Assembly (NCBI GenBank): GCA_020720325.1
Contig: DYOW01000001.1
Location: 1 to 32,048, forward strand
Source of the DNA: Desulfobulbus propionicus
GTDB lineage: Bacteria; Desulfobacterota; Dissulfuribacteria; Dissulfuribacterales; DYOW01
Direction of reading: 5' to 3'
Length of the DNA stretch: 32,048 nt
The translations under genes and the position numbers were made by a program. The notes beneath the pieces were generated by a model. That model did not search any database. It saw only the letters and a program-made list of their open reading frames with translations, and was not told the origin of the DNA. This document shows, piece after piece, positions 1 through 16,078 of the stretch. Within the stretch, counting starts at the first letter, position 1. The number at the start of each line of letters is the position of its first letter.

Positions 1-2043
1 CTTGCGTCTGGATTTATTTCTTTTTTAAGCCTGTTTCTGCTGTCATACTCAAAATCAATCCATTTTTTAAGACTACCTGATGAATCCTTTATTTCCTCAC
101 GGATTCTGTTGCCTTCTGTGTCATATTGATAAGTTATGGAATTATTAAGACCGTCTCTTACCCTTATCTGTCTGTTGAGAGAGTCGTAATCATAATAAAT
201 GGTAATATTTCCCGGAAGAACCGTTGATATTAAATTGCCTGTGGCGTCATAATTATATGTTGTGACTGCTCCTGCTGTTGTAATGGTCTTTATTCTTCCC
301 ATTGGGTCGTAGGCATAGGTTGTCACAACATTATTGGGGTCAGTGACTGTTCCGGAATTTCCGTTTGAATCATAGTTGGAGTAGGTGGTTGTCCCTATAA
401 CAGGCATAGTTCTGGAAATCAGCCTTCCATTTGAATCATATAAAAAGATTGTCACATCTGAAACATCTGTCCTTGGTCCGTCTATTGATGTTATCTGTCC
501 GTAAGCATTATAGGTATTGGTGCTTATATAGGTATAAGGACTGCTGTTTGAATAACCCTGTTCCTGTATCTGAGTTAGATTTCCGCTTGAATCATAAGTG
601 TATGTTGTGACCTTGTTTTGCCCCTGGGTGTCAACGCCTGACTGGGTAAGAGTCAAAAACTCTTCCGAAGAAATCGTAAGTATAAGTCTTTGTTATCTGA
701 TCCGCTGTTCCATAAGCCTCAATAACAGTTCCAGAATTGCATTTTGTGTCATAATCCTGATATTTTGTTATGTTTCCGTTTGCGTCAATAAGCTCTATAA
801 GGTTTCAGGTTTTATCATAATGTTTGACAACATCATTTCCAACACAACCTGAACAGCCAGGTCCGGACACAGTGAAATCATCTGTTGTAGCGCCCTCAAT
901 AAAGTTATAGGTTGTGATTTCGCTTTTTGAGTTGGTTACACTGACTGTCTGGGCTGAATCATAACTTATTGAGACATATTCGTTATTATCATGGCCTTTT
1001 GACAAAATCGCCCTGTCGCTTGTGTTATATGACCACATATATCTTGCAACACCGTTTGCATTTACATATTTTGTAAGGTTATGTATATCTCCTCCGTTTG
1101 TTAAACCAAGTTTAGGATAATCAACATAATAGAACCTGTCTGTGGGGTTATTATTGGGATCTGAGTCGCCGTCAGGATATTTTACGGATGCGAGGTTGTT
1201 TGAGCTGTATGTCATAGAATAAACATTGCCGTTTGGGTCTGTCACACTTGACACCTGCCCGTAACCATTATAGGCAAGGGTTATTGTCCTTCAGAAGTTA
1301 TCCGTTATTGTGACAGGGCCATAAGTTCCATGTGTTAAAATTACTGAAGTTCCGTTTGTTGCGGTTACTGATAAAAGCTTGCCTGTGAGGTCAAATCTGT
1401 AAGTTTTGCCGTCTTTTTTCGTCCATGTATAACCTGTGGCATCCTTGGAAAGGCTTGAGAATTTCTGTTTGCCAACCTTCCATGTTAATCCGCCGTCAAC
1501 CGTGTCAAAAACAGTGCGCGCCAGGCTGCCTTCCTCTGTGATAACCACTCTTTCAGAACTTACGGGATTAAGCCATGCGGAGTATGAATGAGACCAGCCA
1601 TAACCCATTGTCTTTTTCTCATTCCTGCCGCTCTCATAATATAAGTTAAACTCCATAGGAAGTCCAAGCTTTGGAAGGGAGAAGAACCTGAATTTATGGT
1701 GCATTGAACCTGTAAGAAGACTGATTGGCTGTCCGGTATTTTTATAGCAGTCCTGGCATTTATCATCGCAGTCAGGGCAGAAAGTAGTAAGATTCAGATC
1801 GGTATCATCGCAGTCGTCTTTATTTGGCTCACCATCGCCGTCTTCATCAATATTTCATTTGTCACAACCCTTGCCAAGACATATTGCCGAAAGGGGGCTT
1901 CCGTCACAACACATGGTGACCCAGCCTGTGCAACACACTCCCCCATGCCATGAACAGCACCCGGTGCAATCTGCATTTACATTTGAGGCAAAGAATAAAA
2001 AGTTTAAGAAAAGAAGGACAAGGAGATTAATAAAATTTTTCAT
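1..2043 (-). pseudogene. Secreted RHS/YD-repeat protein, interrupted and partial
   Basis: The gene runs off the left edge. The start chosen is the ATG at 2043, because GGAGATGAAGG lies 5 nt upstream; an earlier ATG at 2061 overlaps that Shine-Dalgarno site. Residues 1-24 form a signal peptide ending near VNA. A Cys-rich segment with a CCSWHGGV motif follows, then a D-rich stretch (DEDGDG, DDCDD) like the putative metal-binding motif family. An RHS N-terminal domain comes next (NTGQPISLLTGS, GYGWSHSY), then YD repeats (YDSSGN, YDSNGR, YNAYGQ) to the window end. The frame is broken by TGA at 1855-1857, 1291-1293 and 805-807, all in the same frame, and by a +1 shift in an A5 run at 655-659. Below 655 the frame is open to base 1. 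RHS proteins are large secreted or surface proteins, often polymorphic toxins; the C-terminus is outside the window. It is a pseudogene unless the stops are sequencing errors or are read through. Confidence 0.85.
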
Positions 2044-9130: not shown

Positions 9131-9215
9131 TGGTGCGAGAGGCGAGATTTGAACTCGCACAGGTCACCCCGCTGGATTCTAAGTCCAGTGCGTCTACCAA
9201 TTCCGCCACTCTCGC
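9131..9215 (-). tRNA. tRNA-Leu (anticodon TAG)
   Basis: This is an 85-nt type II tRNA with an extra arm. Acceptor stem is GCGAGAG/CTCTCGC; the anticodon loop CTTAGAA gives TAG, reading CUA. The T arm is GCGAG-TTCAAAT-CTCGC. The CCA end is encoded. It lies 15 nt before tig and behind the same promoter, so the two are probably co-transcribed and separated by tRNA 3' processing. Confidence 0.96.
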
Positions 9216-9552: not shown

Positions 9553-9617
9553 ACTTTATCCAAATTTTTTTACATAAAAACCATAATAGAAATTTTTATT
9601 TAAATTTTAAAATAGTA

Positions 9618-9626
9618 TGCTATAAT
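9618..9626 (+). promoter_or_regulatory. Extended -10 promoter of the CoBaHMA/ATPase operon
   Basis: TGC-TATAAT is an extended -10 element, with TATAAT at 9621-9626. It lies about 25 bases before a strong Shine-Dalgarno site, AGGGAGGA (9643-9650). No good -35 is seen, which is usual for extended -10 promoters. Confidence 0.6.
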
Positions 9627-9655
9627 AACTCGTTAAAAAATTAGGGAGGATTGAC

Positions 9656-9958
9656 TTGGCTTCTATAAAAGACTTATTTAAAGGACATATGCTGACAGGC
9701 ATACTTGTGGGATTAGGTTCTGCTTTTATCCTTCCCAAAATTATCCCTGTTTTTGGCGGGTCCGTCAAACCTGTGATAAAATCCGCTTTGAAAAATGCAA
9801 TTATTCTTGCGGACAAAGGAAAAGAAGTGACCGTTGAAATGATGGAAGCTGCGGAAGACCTCTGGGTTGAGGTAAAAGCTGAGATTGACGAAGAGCACAA
9901 GTCAGCAAGCATGAATATGTCAGACATAGAGGAGGAAGATAACAGTGAGACTACCTGA
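9656..9958 (+). CDS. Small DUF5132-like membrane-associated protein
   Basis: The 100-aa protein starts at TTG, 5 nt after AGGGAGGA. Residues 10-34 form one glycine-containing hydrophobic helix (LTGILVGLGSAFILPKIIP). An amphipathic helix follows (about 38-80, with alternating Lys/Ala and Glu) and an acidic tail. This matches the pattern of the DUF5132 family, small proteins found beside HMA-domain and P-type ATPase genes; the family call is from memory of the pattern. Its TGA stop overlaps the next start by 14 bases, so the two are coupled. Likely an inner-membrane accessory protein of the neighbouring ATPase. The function is unknown. Confidence 0.75.
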   Translation: MASIKDLFKGHMLTGILVGLGSAFILPKIIPVFGGSVKPVIKSALKNAIILADKGKEVTVEMMEAAEDLWVEVKAEIDEEHKSASMNMSDIEEEDNSETT

Positions 9959-10418
9959 TGCAATGGTTATACAAAATGTTGCGGGACATCTTCGTATCAG
10001 GGTCCCTTCCAAAAAAAATGACACTGAGTATTTCAGGATGGTTGAGCAGGTGTTTCTTGCCTGTGAGAATGTTAAATCAATAAAAGTTAATCCTTTAACA
10101 ACGAGCATTACCTTAAAATATACCGGCGACCTCACTGATATAAAAGATTTTGCCTTCACTCATCACCTTTTTTCACTTACACTTAAATCCTCACAGCTTA
10201 CCCCATTAATGGATAACTGTGAAAAAGGAGTAATGAAAGCAGATAATCTTCTTAATTTTTTAACTTTTGGTCAGCTTGATTTCCGATCCATTGCATTTGT
10301 TTTTTTTGTGGGTGTTGGTATCTTTCAAATTGCAAGAGGCAATTTTATGCTACCTTCATGGTTCACAGCGCTCTGGTATGCTAGCAAACTCATAAACACT
10401 GAAAAAGGTCATCTCTAA
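9945..10418 (+). CDS. HMA-like (CoBaHMA-type) domain protein with membrane hairpin
   Basis: The 157-aa protein starts at GTG inside the previous gene, preceded by GAGGAGGAAG. Residues 8-62 have the beta-alpha-beta pattern of an HMA/ferredoxin-like fold. The usual CxxC metal site is absent; instead strand 1 is basic (GHLRIRVPSKK, 14-24). This agrees with the CoBaHMA class of HMA domains, which lack metal ligands and have conserved basic residues thought to face membranes or anionic ligands. Residues 113-150 form a hydrophobic hairpin interrupted by R131. So it is likely a membrane protein with a cytosolic CoBaHMA domain. It shares this domain with the N-terminus of the ATPase two genes downstream. 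Confidence 0.75.
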   Translation: MRLPDAMVIQNVAGHLRIRVPSKKNDTEYFRMVEQVFLACENVKSIKVNPLTTSITLKYTGDLTDIKDFAFTHHLFSLTLKSSQLTPLMDNCEKGVMKADNLLNFLTFGQLDFRSIAFVFFVGVGIFQIARGNFMLPSWFTALWYASKLINTEKGHL

Positions 10419-10454
10419 ACAGAAACCATAATCCAAAAAAAAAGGAGAAAAAAA

Positions 10455-11072
10455 ATGTCAGAAGAAAGCAACAAAAATCTTTTAGAACAGGCAGGCATAA
10501 CAGTTAAAGACGGCATTGTCAAGAGTTTAAGAGGCATCAATGAAATTGAGGATGAAATGGTAAATCTTACAAGAAATACTGTTTGCAATACCCTGAGACT
10601 TACAGGTGATATTGCCAAAGAAGGCATAGGCGTCACAACAGAAGTTGTTAAAAGCGCGATGAAGGCAACAGAGGAAGTGGGAACAGGACTTATAATGGGC
10701 ACAAAAAGCGTTGCAAAAGGCGCTATAATGGGTGTAAGCGATGTAGGCGGCGACCTTATAACCTTTGCAACCCATATTACAAGAACAGCGGTTAAAGGCG
10801 CTTTTGATGTTGGAGCTGATGTTGCCACTGTTGCCAAAAAGGCAGTGGACGGAATAGTCGAGGCAACAAAAGAAGTTGGCGGCAATGTTGAAGAAGTTGC
10901 AAAAGGCGCTGTCACAGGCGCGATTGACGCTGCAAGCCACATCAGCAAAAGCGCTACAAACGCAGTTGCTGATGTTTTAGTAGGCGTTGTTGATAACACC
11001 AAAAATGTTTTTGGCTCAGCGCTTCCAAAAGGCGAAAAAACTTCTGAAAAAGAAGAAAAAACATCCGAATAG
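10455..11072 (+). CDS. Glycine-zipper, 22-residue-repeat amphipathic protein
   Basis: I know no named family for this 205-aa protein. AAGGAG lies 8 nt before the ATG. The centre (about 60-165) is a repeat: VGTG at 75-78, VGGD at 97-100, VGAD at 119-122 and VGGN at 141-144 are each exactly 22 residues apart. GxxxG motifs (GLIMG 78-82, GAIMG 89-93, GAVTG 151-155) lie between them. The Lys/Ala/Val/Gly pattern predicts long amphipathic helices, with 22 residues equal to six turns in an 11-residue periodicity, as in apolipoproteins. A charged tail (EKTSEKEEKTSE) ends it. There is no signal peptide. It probably coats or inserts into a membrane, or self-assembles like the GlyZip region of calcyanin; this is inference. 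It sits between the CoBaHMA genes. Confidence 0.8.
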   Translation: MSEESNKNLLEQAGITVKDGIVKSLRGINEIEDEMVNLTRNTVCNTLRLTGDIAKEGIGVTTEVVKSAMKATEEVGTGLIMGTKSVAKGAIMGVSDVGGDLITFATHITRTAVKGAFDVGADVATVAKKAVDGIVEATKEVGGNVEEVAKGAVTGAIDAASHISKSATNAVADVLVGVVDNTKNVFGSALPKGEKTSEKEEKTSE

Positions 11073-11121
11073 AGCGGATGCGGAATGTTAAAAATATAAA
11101 AATTATTTATAGTGGGATAAA

Positions 11122-14100
11122 TTGAATAATCAAATTTCAACAATTCATAAAATACCGGGAAGGGCAAGGCTTAAAATAAATTGTCTTTATAAATCGCCTG
11201 AAATTGAAAAAAAACTATCTGAGATCCTTCCCGGAATTGAAAACATTATTACAGCAAAACCCAACCACATAACCGGAAATATACTTATATTTTTTAATCC
11301 TGATATACCTTTGGAATCTCTTTTACAATCTATTGAAAAAATAGTGGATGAAATAAAACCAGAGGAATCTTATGATAATTCGCATAATAATTCGCAAAAA
11401 TTTAACCAGCTAACTTTTGGAAGCTTTATACCAAAAGATATTATTCCCAAAGATATTATTCCCAACATAAACTTAAATTTTAATCTTGACTTTTTATCTC
11501 GTTTTAAAGATTTATGCGCTGTAAAAAAAAACAAAAATAACAATGAAAAATTAATAAAATCATCTGAAATTCAGTCAACAACTCACTGGCATCTGCAAGA
11601 AACACAGGATATTTTTGATTATTTTACAACAAATAAAGAATATGGTCTATCAAATAAAGAAGCGCTTGAAAGACTACAGAAATATGGCTCAAACATACTT
11701 CCAGAGGCAGTTCCCAGATCAAAATTTGATATCTTTTTTGATCAGTTAAAGTCTGTTCCGGTTGCCCTTCTTGGTGTTGCCGCAGTTATTTCCATATTTA
11801 CAGGCGGGGCAATTGACGCAGTGGTGATTACTTCAGTTGTTTTGCTTAATGCTGTCATTGGATATGTCACTGAAAACCAGTCTGAAAAAACCATTAATTC
11901 ATTAAAAAGCCTTGTAAGACCCACTGCATGGGTAATAAGAGAGGCTCAAACAAAAGAAATTGGCGCAGGAGATATTGTTCCCGGAGATTTAATACTCTTA
12001 AGACCAGGCGATTATGTCCCTGCTGATGCCAGGATAATTCAGGCCAAAAGACTAAGTATTGATGAGTCTGCATTAACAGGTGAGGGAGTTCCTGTAAATA
12101 AAGACGCAAATGTCATACATGACCCTAACTGCCCTATCTGTGACCGCCTGAATATGTGTTTTATGGGCACACTTGTCACAGGAGGTCAGGGTCTTGCAAT
12201 TGTTGTGGGAACAGGAAGATTTACTGAAATGGGAACAATCCAGTTTATGGTGGGTGAGGCAAAACCTCCTGAAACCCCAATGGAAAGACAACTTGAAGAA
12301 ATGGGAACAAAGCTTGTTATCTTTTCAGGCGTTCTTTGCTGCATTGTTTTTGTAATGGGTCTTTTAAGAGGATACGGCGTTTTACAAATGCTTAAAACCG
12401 CAATATCCCTTGCAGTAGCAGCTGTGCCTGAAGGTCTTCCCACTGTCGCCACAACCACCCTTTCCCTTGGTGTAAAAGAAATGAGAAAACACAAGGTTCT
12501 TATACGCCATCTTGATGCGATTGAGGCCCTTGGCGCAGTTCAGGTAATATGTCTTGATAAAACTGGCACTATCACAGAAAATAAAATGAAGGTTGTTCAG
12601 ATTAGGGCAGGAAAAGAAATTATCCAGCTTCCTGCGGAACTCAAAAATTATGACCAGGCTTCTGTTTCACCTGTTTTGATAGATGAAATAATGGGATTAT
12701 TAATTGTTTCAGCCCTTTGCAATGAAAGCGAAGTTATATACGAAAATGATAATTTTAAAATACACGGTTCCCCCACAGAAAATGCCCTTGTTTTTCTTTC
12801 TGTTTCAGGTGGATTGGATGTCCCCCATCTCAGGGAGGACTGGCCAAGATCAAAAATCATCCATCGCTCTGAAAGAAGAAACTATATGGCAACTATCCAT
12901 AATGTAATGGACGGTAAAAAACTTGTTTGTGTAAAGGGAAGTCCCAGAGAGGTGCTTAATCTCTGCACCCATTATATGAAAGACGGCTTTACTTACGAAC
13001 TGACAGAAGATGATGATCTTTTTTTCCAGACCCAAAATGAACAAATGGCAGGCGAGGCTTTAAGGGTGCTTGGAATGGCATATTCACTTTCAGATGAGGC
13101 GCCTCCCCTTGAAGAAACAACAGATGACGATGATGAGCAAATAACCCACAGACTTGTATGGCTTGGGCTTGTGGGCATGACAGATCCTATAAGACCGGGT
13201 CTAACCAAACTTTTCCCTCAATTTCATTCTGCTGGCATAAAAACCGTCATGATAACCGGAGACCAGTCACCAACCGCCTTTGCTGTGGGAAAAGAACTTA
13301 ACATAAGCGGTGAGCCTAATATGGTCATTCTTGATTCAAGCAACATTGTTGATATGGATCCGGTTGCTTTACGGGCATTGGCATTAAAAACCAGTGTTTT
13401 TTCAAGAGTTAGTCCTGGAAACAAACTTGAAATCGTAAAGGCTTTGCAGGATTCCAATAAAGTTGTAGCAATGACAGGGGATGGAATTAACGATAGCCCC
13501 GCCCTCAGAGCTGCAGATATTGGTGTTGCAATGGGCTGCACAGGCACTGATGTTGCCCGTGAAGTTGCGGATGTGGTTCTTGAGGATGATAACCTTGAAA
13601 CTATGATTATCGCAATTAAAATGGGCAGAACAATATACGGAAATGTTCAGAAATCTCTCAGATTCCTTCTTTCAACAAATTTAAGTGAAATTATGGTAAG
13701 CTTTGCATCTAATACCTTTGGTATGGGGCAGCCACTTACTGAAATGCAGCTTCTCTGGATTAATCTTGTCACAGATATTTTTCCAGGTCTTGCCCTTGCA
13801 ATGGAGCAGCCTGAAAACGATATAATGGAAAGAAAACCAAGAGACCCCCATAAACCCATTATAGATAAGGATGAGCTAATGGATATTTCCCGCGAGGCAG
13901 GCATGATAAGCCTTACATCCCTGGGAGCATATGGATATGGAATAGCCAAATACGGAATAGGACCAAATGCAACAGCAATTTCTTTTCTTTCCATTACTTC
14001 GAGTCAGCTTTTACATGCCTTAACTTGCAGATCAAAATACAGCGGTATATTTAAAGGTGAAAAATTGCCCTCAAATCATTATCTAACCCTTGCAATTGGC

Positions 14101-14277
14101 GGCTCATTTGCGCTTCAGGGACTCGCATTGTTTGTTCCGGGTCTCAGAAGTCTTCTTGGATTAGGACAATTAGCCTTAACAGATATGCTTGTGGTTGGCG
14201 CCGCATCAACCCTTCCGTTTTTAGTAAACGAAATAACCAAAAAACCAAAAGAGTTAACAGAGGTAAAAAATGATTAA
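11122..14277 (+). CDS. P-type ATPase (Ca2+-type, PIIA-like) with N-terminal HMA-like domain
   Basis: The 1051-aa protein starts at TTG behind GTGGGATAAA. Residues 5-82 are an HMA-like domain without CxxC, with a basic IHKIPGRARLKI motif (8-19). A low-complexity linker follows, with a duplicated PKDII. A cation-ATPase N domain (about 152-200) and the pump core come next: TGE at 319-321, phosphorylated D479 in DKTGT, and TGDGIND at 785-791. M4 has PEGLP (436-440), M5 has NLSE (N853, E856), and M6 has NLVTD (N881, T884, D885). These match the SERCA ligands E309, N768, E771, N796, T799 and D800, so Ca2+ (or Mn2+) is the likely substrate. HMA domains normally belong to PIB heavy-metal pumps, so the fusion is unusual. 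The stop overlaps the start of the metK-like gene. Confidence 0.93.
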   Translation: MNNQISTIHKIPGRARLKINCLYKSPEIEKKLSEILPGIENIITAKPNHITGNILIFFNPDIPLESLLQSIEKIVDEIKPEESYDNSHNNSQKFNQLTFGSFIPKDIIPKDIIPNINLNFNLDFLSRFKDLCAVKKNKNNNEKLIKSSEIQSTTHWHLQETQDIFDYFTTNKEYGLSNKEALERLQKYGSNILPEAVPRSKFDIFFDQLKSVPVALLGVAAVISIFTGGAIDAVVITSVVLLNAVIGYVTENQSEKTINSLKSLVRPTAWVIREAQTKEIGAGDIVPGDLILLRPGDYVPADARIIQAKRLSIDESALTGEGVPVNKDANVIHDPNCPICDRLNMCFMGTLVTGGQGLAIVVGTGRFTEMGTIQFMVGEAKPPETPMERQLEEMGTKLVIFSGVLCCIVFVMGLLRGYGVLQMLKTAISLAVAAVPEGLPTVATTTLSLGVKEMRKHKVLIRHLDAIEALGAVQVICLDKTGTITENKMKVVQIRAGKEIIQLPAELKNYDQASVSPVLIDEIMGLLIVSALCNESEVIYENDNFKIHGSPTENALVFLSVSGGLDVPHLREDWPRSKIIHRSERRNYMATIHNVMDGKKLVCVKGSPREVLNLCTHYMKDGFTYELTEDDDLFFQTQNEQMAGEALRVLGMAYSLSDEAPPLEETTDDDDEQITHRLVWLGLVGMTDPIRPGLTKLFPQFHSAGIKTVMITGDQSPTAFAVGKELNISGEPNMVILDSSNIVDMDPVALRALALKTSVFSRVSPGNKLEIVKALQDSNKVVAMTGDGINDSPALRAADIGVAMGCTGTDVAREVADVVLEDDNLETMIIAIKMGRTIYGNVQKSLRFLLSTNLSEIMVSFASNTFGMGQPLTEMQLLWINLVTDIFPGLALAMEQPENDIMERKPRDPHKPIIDKDELMDISREAGMISLTSLGAYGYGIAKYGIGPNATAISFLSITSSQLLHALTCRSKYSGIFKGEKLPSNHYLTLAIGGSFALQGLALFVPGLRSLLGLGQLALTDMLVVGAASTLPFLVNEITKKPKELTEVKND

Positions 14278-15472
14278 AAAGGACTATGTCTTTTTTTCTG
14301 AATCAGTCATTGAAGGTCATCCGGATAAATTATGCGATCAGATAAGCGATGCGCTTGTTGACAGATTTCTTCAGCAAGACCCATATTCTTCCATTATTGC
14401 AGAAACAGCAGTGTCCCAGTCCATTGTCTTTCTTGCGGTGCAATTTGCTTCCACTGCCATTGTTGATGCCCCAAGCGTTGCGAGAGAGGTAATAAATGAT
14501 ATAGGCTATCAAGATGAATCATTTAGCGGAAGAAGCTGCACTGCCCTTACAAGCCTTAGAGAAATACCTCTTGATGAAGAAAACAGGTTTGATGAAATAA
14601 ATTTGCTTGACGATGAAATTGAAAAAATATATGTTAGAAATCAGGTAAATGTCTTTGGTTTTGCCTGTAATCAAACAAAATCTCTTATGCCTCTTCCAAT
14701 TTGGCTTGCCCATAAAATTGCAAAAAGATTAAATTTCGTAAGAAGATCAAAAATATTAAATTATCTCACCCCTGATGCAAAGGTTCAGGTTGGAGTTGAA
14801 TATCAAAAGGGAATCCCCAAAAGAATCCACAGCATAACACTTCAGATATGTCTTAAAAAGAATTCAAAAACCGGTAATATCCTTGAAGACATCAGGGAAA
14901 ATGTCATTAAAGATGTTTTCTGGGGAGCTGATCCGGAACAGGTTTGTCCTGATGAAAAAACCAAACTTTTTGTAAGACCAAATGATCCAATAATAGGTTG
15001 CGGCCCAAATGTGCATTCAGGATTAACCGGAAGAAAAAACGCTATTGATACCTATGGTGAATATGCAAGACACAGCGGCGCATCATTAAGCGGAAAAGAC
15101 CCAAGAAGAATTGACAGAATAGGCGCTTATGTTGCTCGTTATGCTGCCAAAAATATTGTTGCAGCAGGTCTCGCAGAAGAATGTGAAGTGCAGCTAAGTT
15201 ATTCAATTGGTTTTTCAAGACCTGTCAGTATCTTTGTGCAGACCTTTGGAACAGGTAAAATATCAGATGACCAGCTTACAGATATTCTTAAAAAACATTT
15301 TGAATTCAGACCTGCCGGAATACTAAAAGAATTTAAGCTGAGACATCTTCCTTTGCATAAAGGCGGCTTTTACAGGAAACTTGCCTCTTATGGTCACATG
15401 GGCAGGATTGACCTTGACCTTCCTTGGGAAAAAATAGATAGACTTGATATTCTTGCCCAATATTTGCCTTAA
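14270..15472 (+). CDS. Divergent S-adenosylmethionine synthetase (MetK-like)
   Basis: The 400-aa protein aligns along its whole length with bacterial MetK, which makes SAM from Met and ATP. Present are EGHPDK (15-20), PDAK (168-171), GLTGRK (251-256) and SGKDP (274-278). The usual GAGDQG loop has become VRNQVN, putting N124 at the metal-binding Asp118 position of E. coli. GGPMGD has become CGPNVH, with H249 at the Asp238 position. K269 is R280. A second canonical metK is probably elsewhere in the genome, and this copy may be specialised or altered in substrate. Its ATG overlaps the ATPase stop (ATGATTAA), and GAGGTAAAAA precedes it, so it belongs to this operon. The fold is certain; the activity is not. 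Confidence 0.88.
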   Translation: MIKKDYVFFSESVIEGHPDKLCDQISDALVDRFLQQDPYSSIIAETAVSQSIVFLAVQFASTAIVDAPSVAREVINDIGYQDESFSGRSCTALTSLREIPLDEENRFDEINLLDDEIEKIYVRNQVNVFGFACNQTKSLMPLPIWLAHKIAKRLNFVRRSKILNYLTPDAKVQVGVEYQKGIPKRIHSITLQICLKKNSKTGNILEDIRENVIKDVFWGADPEQVCPDEKTKLFVRPNDPIIGCGPNVHSGLTGRKNAIDTYGEYARHSGASLSGKDPRRIDRIGAYVARYAAKNIVAAGLAEECEVQLSYSIGFSRPVSIFVQTFGTGKISDDQLTDILKKHFEFRPAGILKEFKLRHLPLHKGGFYRKLASYGHMGRIDLDLPWEKIDRLDILAQYLP

Positions 15473-15507
15473 TAAAATAATTATCTTATAAAACTTCAAA
15501 AACTCTC

Positions 15508-15816
15508 ATGGCTCTCTTAAACCTTGAAAGCATGCTAAACAGGGTGGAAAAGGAATTAAGGGGGTTGTCAAACAATACAGGCTTTGAAATCCTCTCATAT
15601 AAAAGAAACAGAGGAGTTTCTGTTTTAAAGATTGATGCAAATAATTTTATAATAAGAGAAAAGGGGTATTGTGATGAGGAAAAAACCATTTCCCAACCAG
15701 AGATAATCAAGATACTCGAAACTATAATAAAAAGAGAATTCCCCAGGAGCAGAAAATTAAGGATTTATTCCATTTCAGCCCCGGAAGAGCTTAATAAAAC
15801 GAGAAAAAAACTTTAG
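15508..15816 (+). CDS. Conserved-looking 102-aa protein of unknown function
   Basis: I do not recognise a named family. It begins MALLNLESMLNRVEKELRGL, a predicted helix. Two or three beta strands follow (GFEILSYKRNRGVSVLKI, NNFIIREKGY), then a helix (EIIKILETIIKREF) and a basic end (PRSRKLRIYSI). It is small, soluble and basic, with no signal peptide. It lies 35 nt downstream of the metK-like gene and is the last gene of the operon. It has no clear Shine-Dalgarno site, and no terminator separates it from tRNA-Arg. The codon pattern and lack of internal stops suggest a real gene. Confidence 0.7.
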   Translation: MALLNLESMLNRVEKELRGLSNNTGFEILSYKRNRGVSVLKIDANNFIIREKGYCDEEKTISQPEIIKILETIIKREFPRSRKLRIYSISAPEELNKTRKKL

Positions 15817-15887: not shown

Positions 15888-15897
15888 ACTTTTTTTT

Positions 15898-15971
15898 GTG
15901 CCCGTAGCTCAGCTGGATAGAGCGCCGGACTACGAATCCGTAGGTCGGGGGTTCGAATCCCTCCGGGCACA
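15898..15971 (+). tRNA. tRNA-Arg (anticodon ACG)
   Basis: This is a 74-nt tRNA with acceptor GTGCCCG/CGGGCAC, a D arm (GCTCAGCTGGATAGAGC), anticodon loop CTACGAA giving ACG (inosine-modified, reading CGN), and T arm GGGGG-TTCGAAT-CCCTC. The CCA end is not encoded. Confidence 0.96.
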
Positions 15972-16078
15972 ATAATTATTTCAAGCAGTTACAAGAAATA
16001 AAAAATTTCAAAAGTTGCCAACCCAAACAAACAAGCTGGAAAATAAGATAGGTTAAAACCCTCTGTCTTTTCAATAAA

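Follow-up and report, generated by a model that had tools for sequence, protein, structure and literature searches.

Calcyanin, the product of ccyA, is found in cyanobacteria that form intracellular amorphous calcium carbonate (CaCO3). It is a single protein whose N-terminal domain, either CoBaHMA-type or another variable one, is joined to three glycine-zipper repeats. CoBaHMA domains have hitherto been considered chiefly in connection with the formation of calcium carbonate by cyanobacteria, and they are hypothesized to bind an anionic lipid or another anionic partner. Ferrosome (fez) clusters are a second kind of locus to be considered, using a P1B-type ATPase of the FezB kind. Here we describe a locus sharing components with both in a stretch of 32,048 nucleotides (nt) from Desulfobulbus propionicus (GenBank assembly GCA_020720325.1, contig DYOW01000001.1, positions 1 to 32,048), which we call the window. 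It lies on contig 137 of a source assembly of 2.44 Mb in 204 contigs. Five consecutive plus-strand genes, designated A to E, encode three small proteins, a P-type ATPase and a paralog of the S-adenosylmethionine (SAM) synthetase MetK. We consider it likely that these five genes form one functional module, in which a divalent-cation pump tethered by CoBaHMA-type domains would work with an ATP-using partner of the methionine adenosyltransferase (MAT) fold that no longer recognises methionine.

The resemblance to calcyanin lies in the presence of a CoBaHMA-type domain and glycine-rich helical repeats in one locus. Here, however, the two are borne by separate genes and not by one protein, the repeat is a 22-residue unit modelled as a solenoid, a pump and a MetK paralog accompany them, and the arrangement is not tied to cyanobacteria. 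Moreover, the repeat gene C is missing from the cyanobacterial loci, where the comparison would need it. With CoBaHMA as commonly described (HMA_2, PF19991), protein B and the N-terminus of D share a profile match, the lack of a CxxC motif and conserved basic residues; they differ in that the operon has two copies, of which one is carried by a P2A-type pump and the other by a protein with membrane helices, and in their linkage to a MetK paralog. Like ferrosome clusters, the locus places small membrane proteins beside a P-type ATPase. A ferrosome was rejected on pump type, as D resembles the P2A pumps SPCA1 and LMCA1, of Ca type, and not P1B. A literature search on CoBaHMA, DUF5132, PF19991 and this gene combination returned nothing relevant in a collection lacking the original articles on calcyanin, CoBaHMA and ferrosomes. 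In the main text of a study of bacterial SERCA relatives and the genes around them, neither SAM synthetase nor HMA is mentioned (PMC7016017).

The module is suggested by its conserved gene linkage. Scanning a genome collection with D yielded 61 loci, and hidden Markov model searches were made of the loci and of whole-genome neighbourhoods. Counts were taken after duplicate removal and refer to loci, not to independent events. Outside Cyanobacteria, E is found at most 1 kb downstream of D in 44/46 loci with enough sequence, and the genes upstream of D include A in 37/41, B in 36/41 and C in 32/41. The order A-B-C-D-E is found in records titled Nitrospirota, Desulfobacterota-type and Planctomycetota. 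In Cyanobacteria the D-E pair is found, E following D in 18/32 loci. The recurrence of the order in distant taxa answers a test set by an earlier note on this DNA, which had described a six-gene plus-strand operon and would have taken a lack of conserved linkage in related genomes as refuting its reading. The genes and their close packing stand; the conserved operon is five genes in the order A-B-C-D-E, widely kept, with the sixth gene F left out.

The linkage also holds in the reverse direction. When the E alignment was run at a strict limit against 395 genomes of the phylum, 26 E genes were found, 23 of which adjoin D on the same contig within about 0.8 kb; the other three lie at contig ends. 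The flanks (up to 20 kb) of 20 canonical metK genes hold no A, B, C or D. Calothrix genomes whose D has no adjacent E carry E elsewhere, and in four of them it stands beside a D-like protein of 657-658 amino acids (aa) (L150:6848-8821, minus strand; L151:11251-13224; L155:11163-13139; L156:11136-13112). This protein keeps PEGLP and the ion residues of membrane segment M6 and has lost DKTGT, TGE and the nucleotide-binding domain. Judged by these motifs, the partner of the MetK paralog in these genomes is a P-type ATPase that is conserved and catalytically dead. A second full D-E pair occurs in Chlorogloeopsis, Fischerella and one Calothrix (L152, L153, L154), with a B-type gene upstream in the first two.

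Gene E (14270 to 15472, plus strand) encodes a 400-aa MetK paralog whose methionine site is replaced and whose ATP, metal and triphosphate site is kept. A maximum-likelihood tree of 96 proteins (62 operon-type E and 34 canonical MetK in the alignment) places all 62 operon-type sequences on one side of a single branch, with a support of 100/100 and a stem length of 1.17 changes per column. In MetK, D238, E55, Q98 and K269 bind methionine, and H14 is the catalytic acid (PMC3853416; residue roles also drawn from PMC1282579). Compared with the 34 canonical sequences, the E family exhibits His for Asp238 and Arg for Lys269 in 62/62, the loss of Glu55 in 62/62 (mostly to Arg; also to Gln, Met and others) and the loss of Gln98 in 58/62. 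The loop around Gly115-Gly120 is rewritten too. Retained residues are H14 (60/62), D16 (62/62), K165 (61/62) and R244, K245, K265 and D271 (each 62/62), and Glu42 is likewise kept in nearly all members. The reference in this alignment was an E. coli MetK sequence. The same D-to-H, K-to-R and E-to-Q changes are visible when E is compared with the deposited PDB chain 7r3b, and the residue result is therefore independent of that reference. These observations support the view that E is a MetK-derived enzyme probably changed in substrate or function. The earlier note had recognised a MetK-like enzyme here and had treated it as incidental, yet E proves to be the tightest-linked partner of the pump, with its methionine site lost.

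Gene D (11122 to 14277, plus strand) encodes a 1051-aa protein in which an HMA_2 domain is fused to a P2A-type cation pump. The domain (11128 to 11304, plus strand; residues 3-61; identified through Pfam) exhibits the motif H-x-[IV]-x-G-R-x-R and no CxxC. Its score was 29.5 bits in the protein scan (cut-off 30) and 33.6 bits, above the cut-off, in a second search. GR.R was found in 64/65 D N-termini and CxxC in 0/65, the full motif being present in nearly all members. Beyond this domain, Pfam and NCBIfam identify a complete P2 ATPase; among solved structures its nearest relatives are SPCA1 from humans and LMCA1 from Listeria. D shares with the type IIA Ca2+ pumps SPCA1/PMR1 and LMCA1 the P2A core, the catalytic motifs and the conserved ion-site residues of M4, M5 and M6: DKTGT, TGE, GDGxND and PEGLP are present in 65/65 homologs, and TNxSE of M5 in 64/65. 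The positions which we take to match SERCA E309, N768, E771, N796 and D800 are conserved. M6 keeps its Asn and Asp but not its Thr, and Gln stands where SERCA has Glu908. D differs from those pumps in this Gln, in its N-terminal HMA_2 domain and in its constant partners A, B, C and E. The transported ion is most likely Ca2+, with Mn2+ allowed by the relationship to SPCA. Plasmid searches with D and E returned only P-type ATPases and MetK at <60% identity.

The second HMA_2 domain of the operon is found in gene B (9945 to 10418, plus strand), which encodes 157 aa comprising this domain followed by hydrophobic helices. B matches PF19991 with 42.7 bits (cut-off 30). Its AlphaFold2 model, with a mean predicted local distance difference test score (pLDDT) of 88.7, exhibits the order beta-alpha-beta-beta-alpha-beta followed by helices at residues 88-106, 113-130 and 137-151. 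Foldseek superposes the model on HMA domains (such as those of MerP and CsoZ) at about 2 Å over about 60 residues, with a TM-score to the target of about 0.65. The small size of the domain makes the Foldseek E-values weak (0.04-0.1), and the family assignment of B therefore rests on the Pfam score and the fold together. CxxC is found in 0/34 B proteins and.R.R in 34/34. The mean net charge is about +5 in both the B and the D families, and +2 in the proteins of the window. Thus the earlier reading of two HMA-like domains that lack CxxC and carry basic residues agrees with the PF19991 matches, and the ferredoxin-like fold that it expected of both is seen in the model of B. The first gene, A (9656 to 9958, plus strand), encodes a 100-aa DUF5132-like protein. 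Its score against PF17195 (DUF5132) is 23.4 bits (E-value = 6e-5), just under the cut-off of 25, and its hydropathy indicates a hydrophobic N-terminal helix (residues about 12-34) followed by a charged helical tail.

Taken as one module, these proteins might work as follows. D would move a divalent cation out of the cytoplasm, the ion being most probably Ca2+, or perhaps Mn2+. The CoBaHMA-type domain at its N-terminus, the membrane-anchored B and the helix-tail protein A may dock on an anionic lipid or other polyanion, and the repeat protein C may form a scaffold beside D, B and A. E might transfer the adenosyl moiety of ATP to a partner other than methionine, probably an anionic one, or it might split ATP or triphosphate; it would thereby supply or sense a phosphate or nucleotide signal tied to the pump. 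In its most far-reaching form, which we offer as a tentative proposal, E would catalyse a new MAT-fold reaction, either the ATP-dependent adenosylation of an acceptor other than methionine, probably an anionic one, or the cleavage of ATP or triphosphate in a controlled way. Its coupling to a Ca2+ pump with a CoBaHMA tether would be obligate, and the whole would be an undescribed cation and phosphate homeostasis module of at least four phyla. PstB is encoded in the flanks of 14/94 loci, PstS in 12, PstA/C in 12 and PhoU in 11, as compared with 0/20 control loci. The Pst/PhoU genes occur in at least four arrangements; at L172, PstS lies about 0.2 kb downstream of E. Loci with such flanks include L038, L044, L046, L047, L049, L050, L052, L090, L104 and L160, besides L172 and others. 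As the recurrence partly reflects shared ancestry, we treat it as a lead only, hinting that the module may work where phosphate is handled.

Several observations weigh against this interpretation. C was never found in the cyanobacterial loci examined and is missing in L073-L076 too. Some Cyanobacteria possess D and no E-type gene (L056, L077, L094). D falls below the NCBIfam cut-offs for Ca2+ pumps of the PMR1 type (622 vs 798 bits) and of the SERCA type (532 vs 703 bits). Ca2+ is therefore the ion that we infer, and by these scores D is P2A-like and outside the curated PMR1-type and SERCA-type subfamilies. The loci behind the Pst link include related genomes, the link is weak given the size of the control, and the window itself does not show it.

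If the single-module reading is correct, its interest lies chiefly in E. MetK is among the most conserved enzymes of life, and in all E-clade members examined the ATP site is kept and the methionine site replaced, making this clade a concrete and testable candidate for new chemistry. The near-constant pairing of E with a CoBaHMA-bearing pump of Ca2+ type would link that chemistry to ion handling, and the CoBaHMA family gains a defined operon outside Cyanobacteria. Fischerella, Chlorogloeopsis and Calothrix are culturable carriers of the D-E pair and are open to deletion experiments.

Gene C (10455 to 11072, plus strand) bears on the alternative that survives best, in which the module would build and load an intracellular store of Ca2+ (or Mn2+) in the manner of calcyanin or ferrosomes, D filling the lumen and A, B and C shaping or coating the membrane. 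The 205-aa product is conserved (49-63% identity between the window protein and 27 homologs in a 28-row alignment) and is made of a glycine-rich 22-residue helical repeat of no known family. The period of 22 is significant: identity at lag 22 is 0.219, as compared with a mean shuffle maximum of 0.133, and 0/2000 shuffles reach the observed value. Together with the CoBaHMA-type domains of B and D, such a repeat protein recalls calcyanin; three small membrane or scaffold proteins beside one pump would suit a compartment, and the Pst/PhoU neighbours of some genomes would fit the storage of calcium phosphate. However, the AlphaFold2 model of C (pLDDT 75.7) is a helical solenoid with one helix per 22 residues (79-97, 101-119, 123-141 and 145-163), and the best 19-residue hydropathy mean is 1.07, too low for spanning a membrane. 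The earlier note had described a glycine zipper of 22-residue repeats; the period is retained, and the membrane zipper is not. Pfam and NCBIfam searches gave C no HMA_2 match and no firm family, and Foldseek returned chiefly designed helical repeat proteins and no functional lead. With C also absent from the cyanobacterial loci, and a pump with accessory proteins being explicable without a compartment, we regard a storage function, as put forward in the earlier note, as a reasonable but less likely alternative. Long open reading frames (ORFs) opposite C (cluster c10) were rejected as a separate gene, being reading frames antisense to C.

E could alternatively be a genuine SAM synthetase with an unusual active site, supplying SAM locally at the pump, for example for lipid or protein methylation. 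It has the full-length MetK fold, matching the NCBIfam S-AdoMet synthetase equivalog with 360 bits (cut-off 309), and like MetK it keeps the length, the catalytic His14 and the ATP, metal and triphosphate residues. Archaeal MATs, furthermore, hold the methionine carboxylate with different residues, so that a replacement alone is no proof of lost activity (PMC3853416). On the other hand, D238, which E. coli and archaeal MATs have in common for the methionine amino group and the ribose (PMC3853416), is the very residue replaced by His in all E sequences, and the change of E55 mostly to Arg is a charge reversal; in these methionine-contact residues, replaced across a separate clade, E departs from MetK. 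E was also rejected as the sole metK of the genome, since a canonical copy is found elsewhere (G000:C37; 41% identity to E). No methyltransferase is conserved in the module. On balance a SAM-synthetase role for E appears improbable. That the locus is an ordinary Ca2+ efflux operon, with E and the small proteins as loosely associated passengers, would agree with the normal and, by its motifs, catalytically intact P2A pump and is nevertheless hardly credible, as E was never away from D where this could be tested (23/23 in the phylum sample), the displaced Calothrix E adjoins a degenerate D-like protein in four genomes, and distant taxa repeat the arrangement of A, B and C.

In the window, six plus-strand ORFs lie between tRNA-Leu (9131-9215, minus strand) and tRNA-Arg (15897-15972, plus strand), and an Rfam search found tRNAs only. 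There are overlaps of 14 nt between A and B and of 8 nt between D and E, and gaps of 36 nt between B and C, 49 nt between C and D, and 35 nt between E and F. Hence 4/5 joints overlap or are at most 40 nt apart, where the earlier note had counted three. It had also placed all six genes behind one promoter. A promoter-like site is indeed present ahead of A (9599 to 9626, plus strand; TTTAAA-16-TATAAT with an extended TG, 10/12), located by a consensus scan that is no evidence of function; such matches are common by chance, 40 having been found and 23 expected. The last ORF, gene F (15508 to 15816, plus strand), encodes 102 aa and matches no family in Pfam or NCBIfam. Homologs of this family of about 100 aa occur in 23/46 genomes of the order, mostly without a D of this type and thus independently of D and E. 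One genome (G038) has F on a different contig from D, and the relatives of F exhibit no tie to tRNA. Being order-specific and unlinked to D or E, F was rejected as an operon member and is judged not to be part of the module. On the upstream side, the opposite strand carries genes for trigger factor, clpP, clpX and lon, and downstream a small secreted-protein gene is followed by formate-tetrahydrofolate ligase on the other strand, all named from their translations. Broken RHS/YD-repeat-like frames were noticed by eye at the left end of the window (805-1704, minus strand).

Other recurrent neighbours of the operon are DUF3562, CorA, a cation diffusion facilitator and TerC. In 13 loci (including L040, L041, L048, L066, L071, L089, L101, L104, L164 and L165) the DUF3562 gene is found on the downstream side of E; the window has no such gene. 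An extra stand-alone and divergent HMA_2 gene of about 123 aa occurs near the operon on either strand (L038, L047, L048, L050, L052, L068, L159, L164, L169 and others), and often overlaps or adjoins a zinc-ribbon gene of about 100 aa. Elsewhere in the genome that carries the window, two P1B heavy-metal ATPases possess an N-terminal HMA_2 domain (G000:C128, L105:9527-11704; G000:C149, L106:8316-10427, minus strand). Their flanks contain no A, B, C or E, and they may represent a separate system, for metals or of a ferrosome-like kind. Finally, Chlorogloeopsis fritschii PCC 6912 exhibits a dense cluster of HMA_2 genes (G424:C96:23852-29640) apart from its D-E pair, some frames of which hold several HMA_2 copies.

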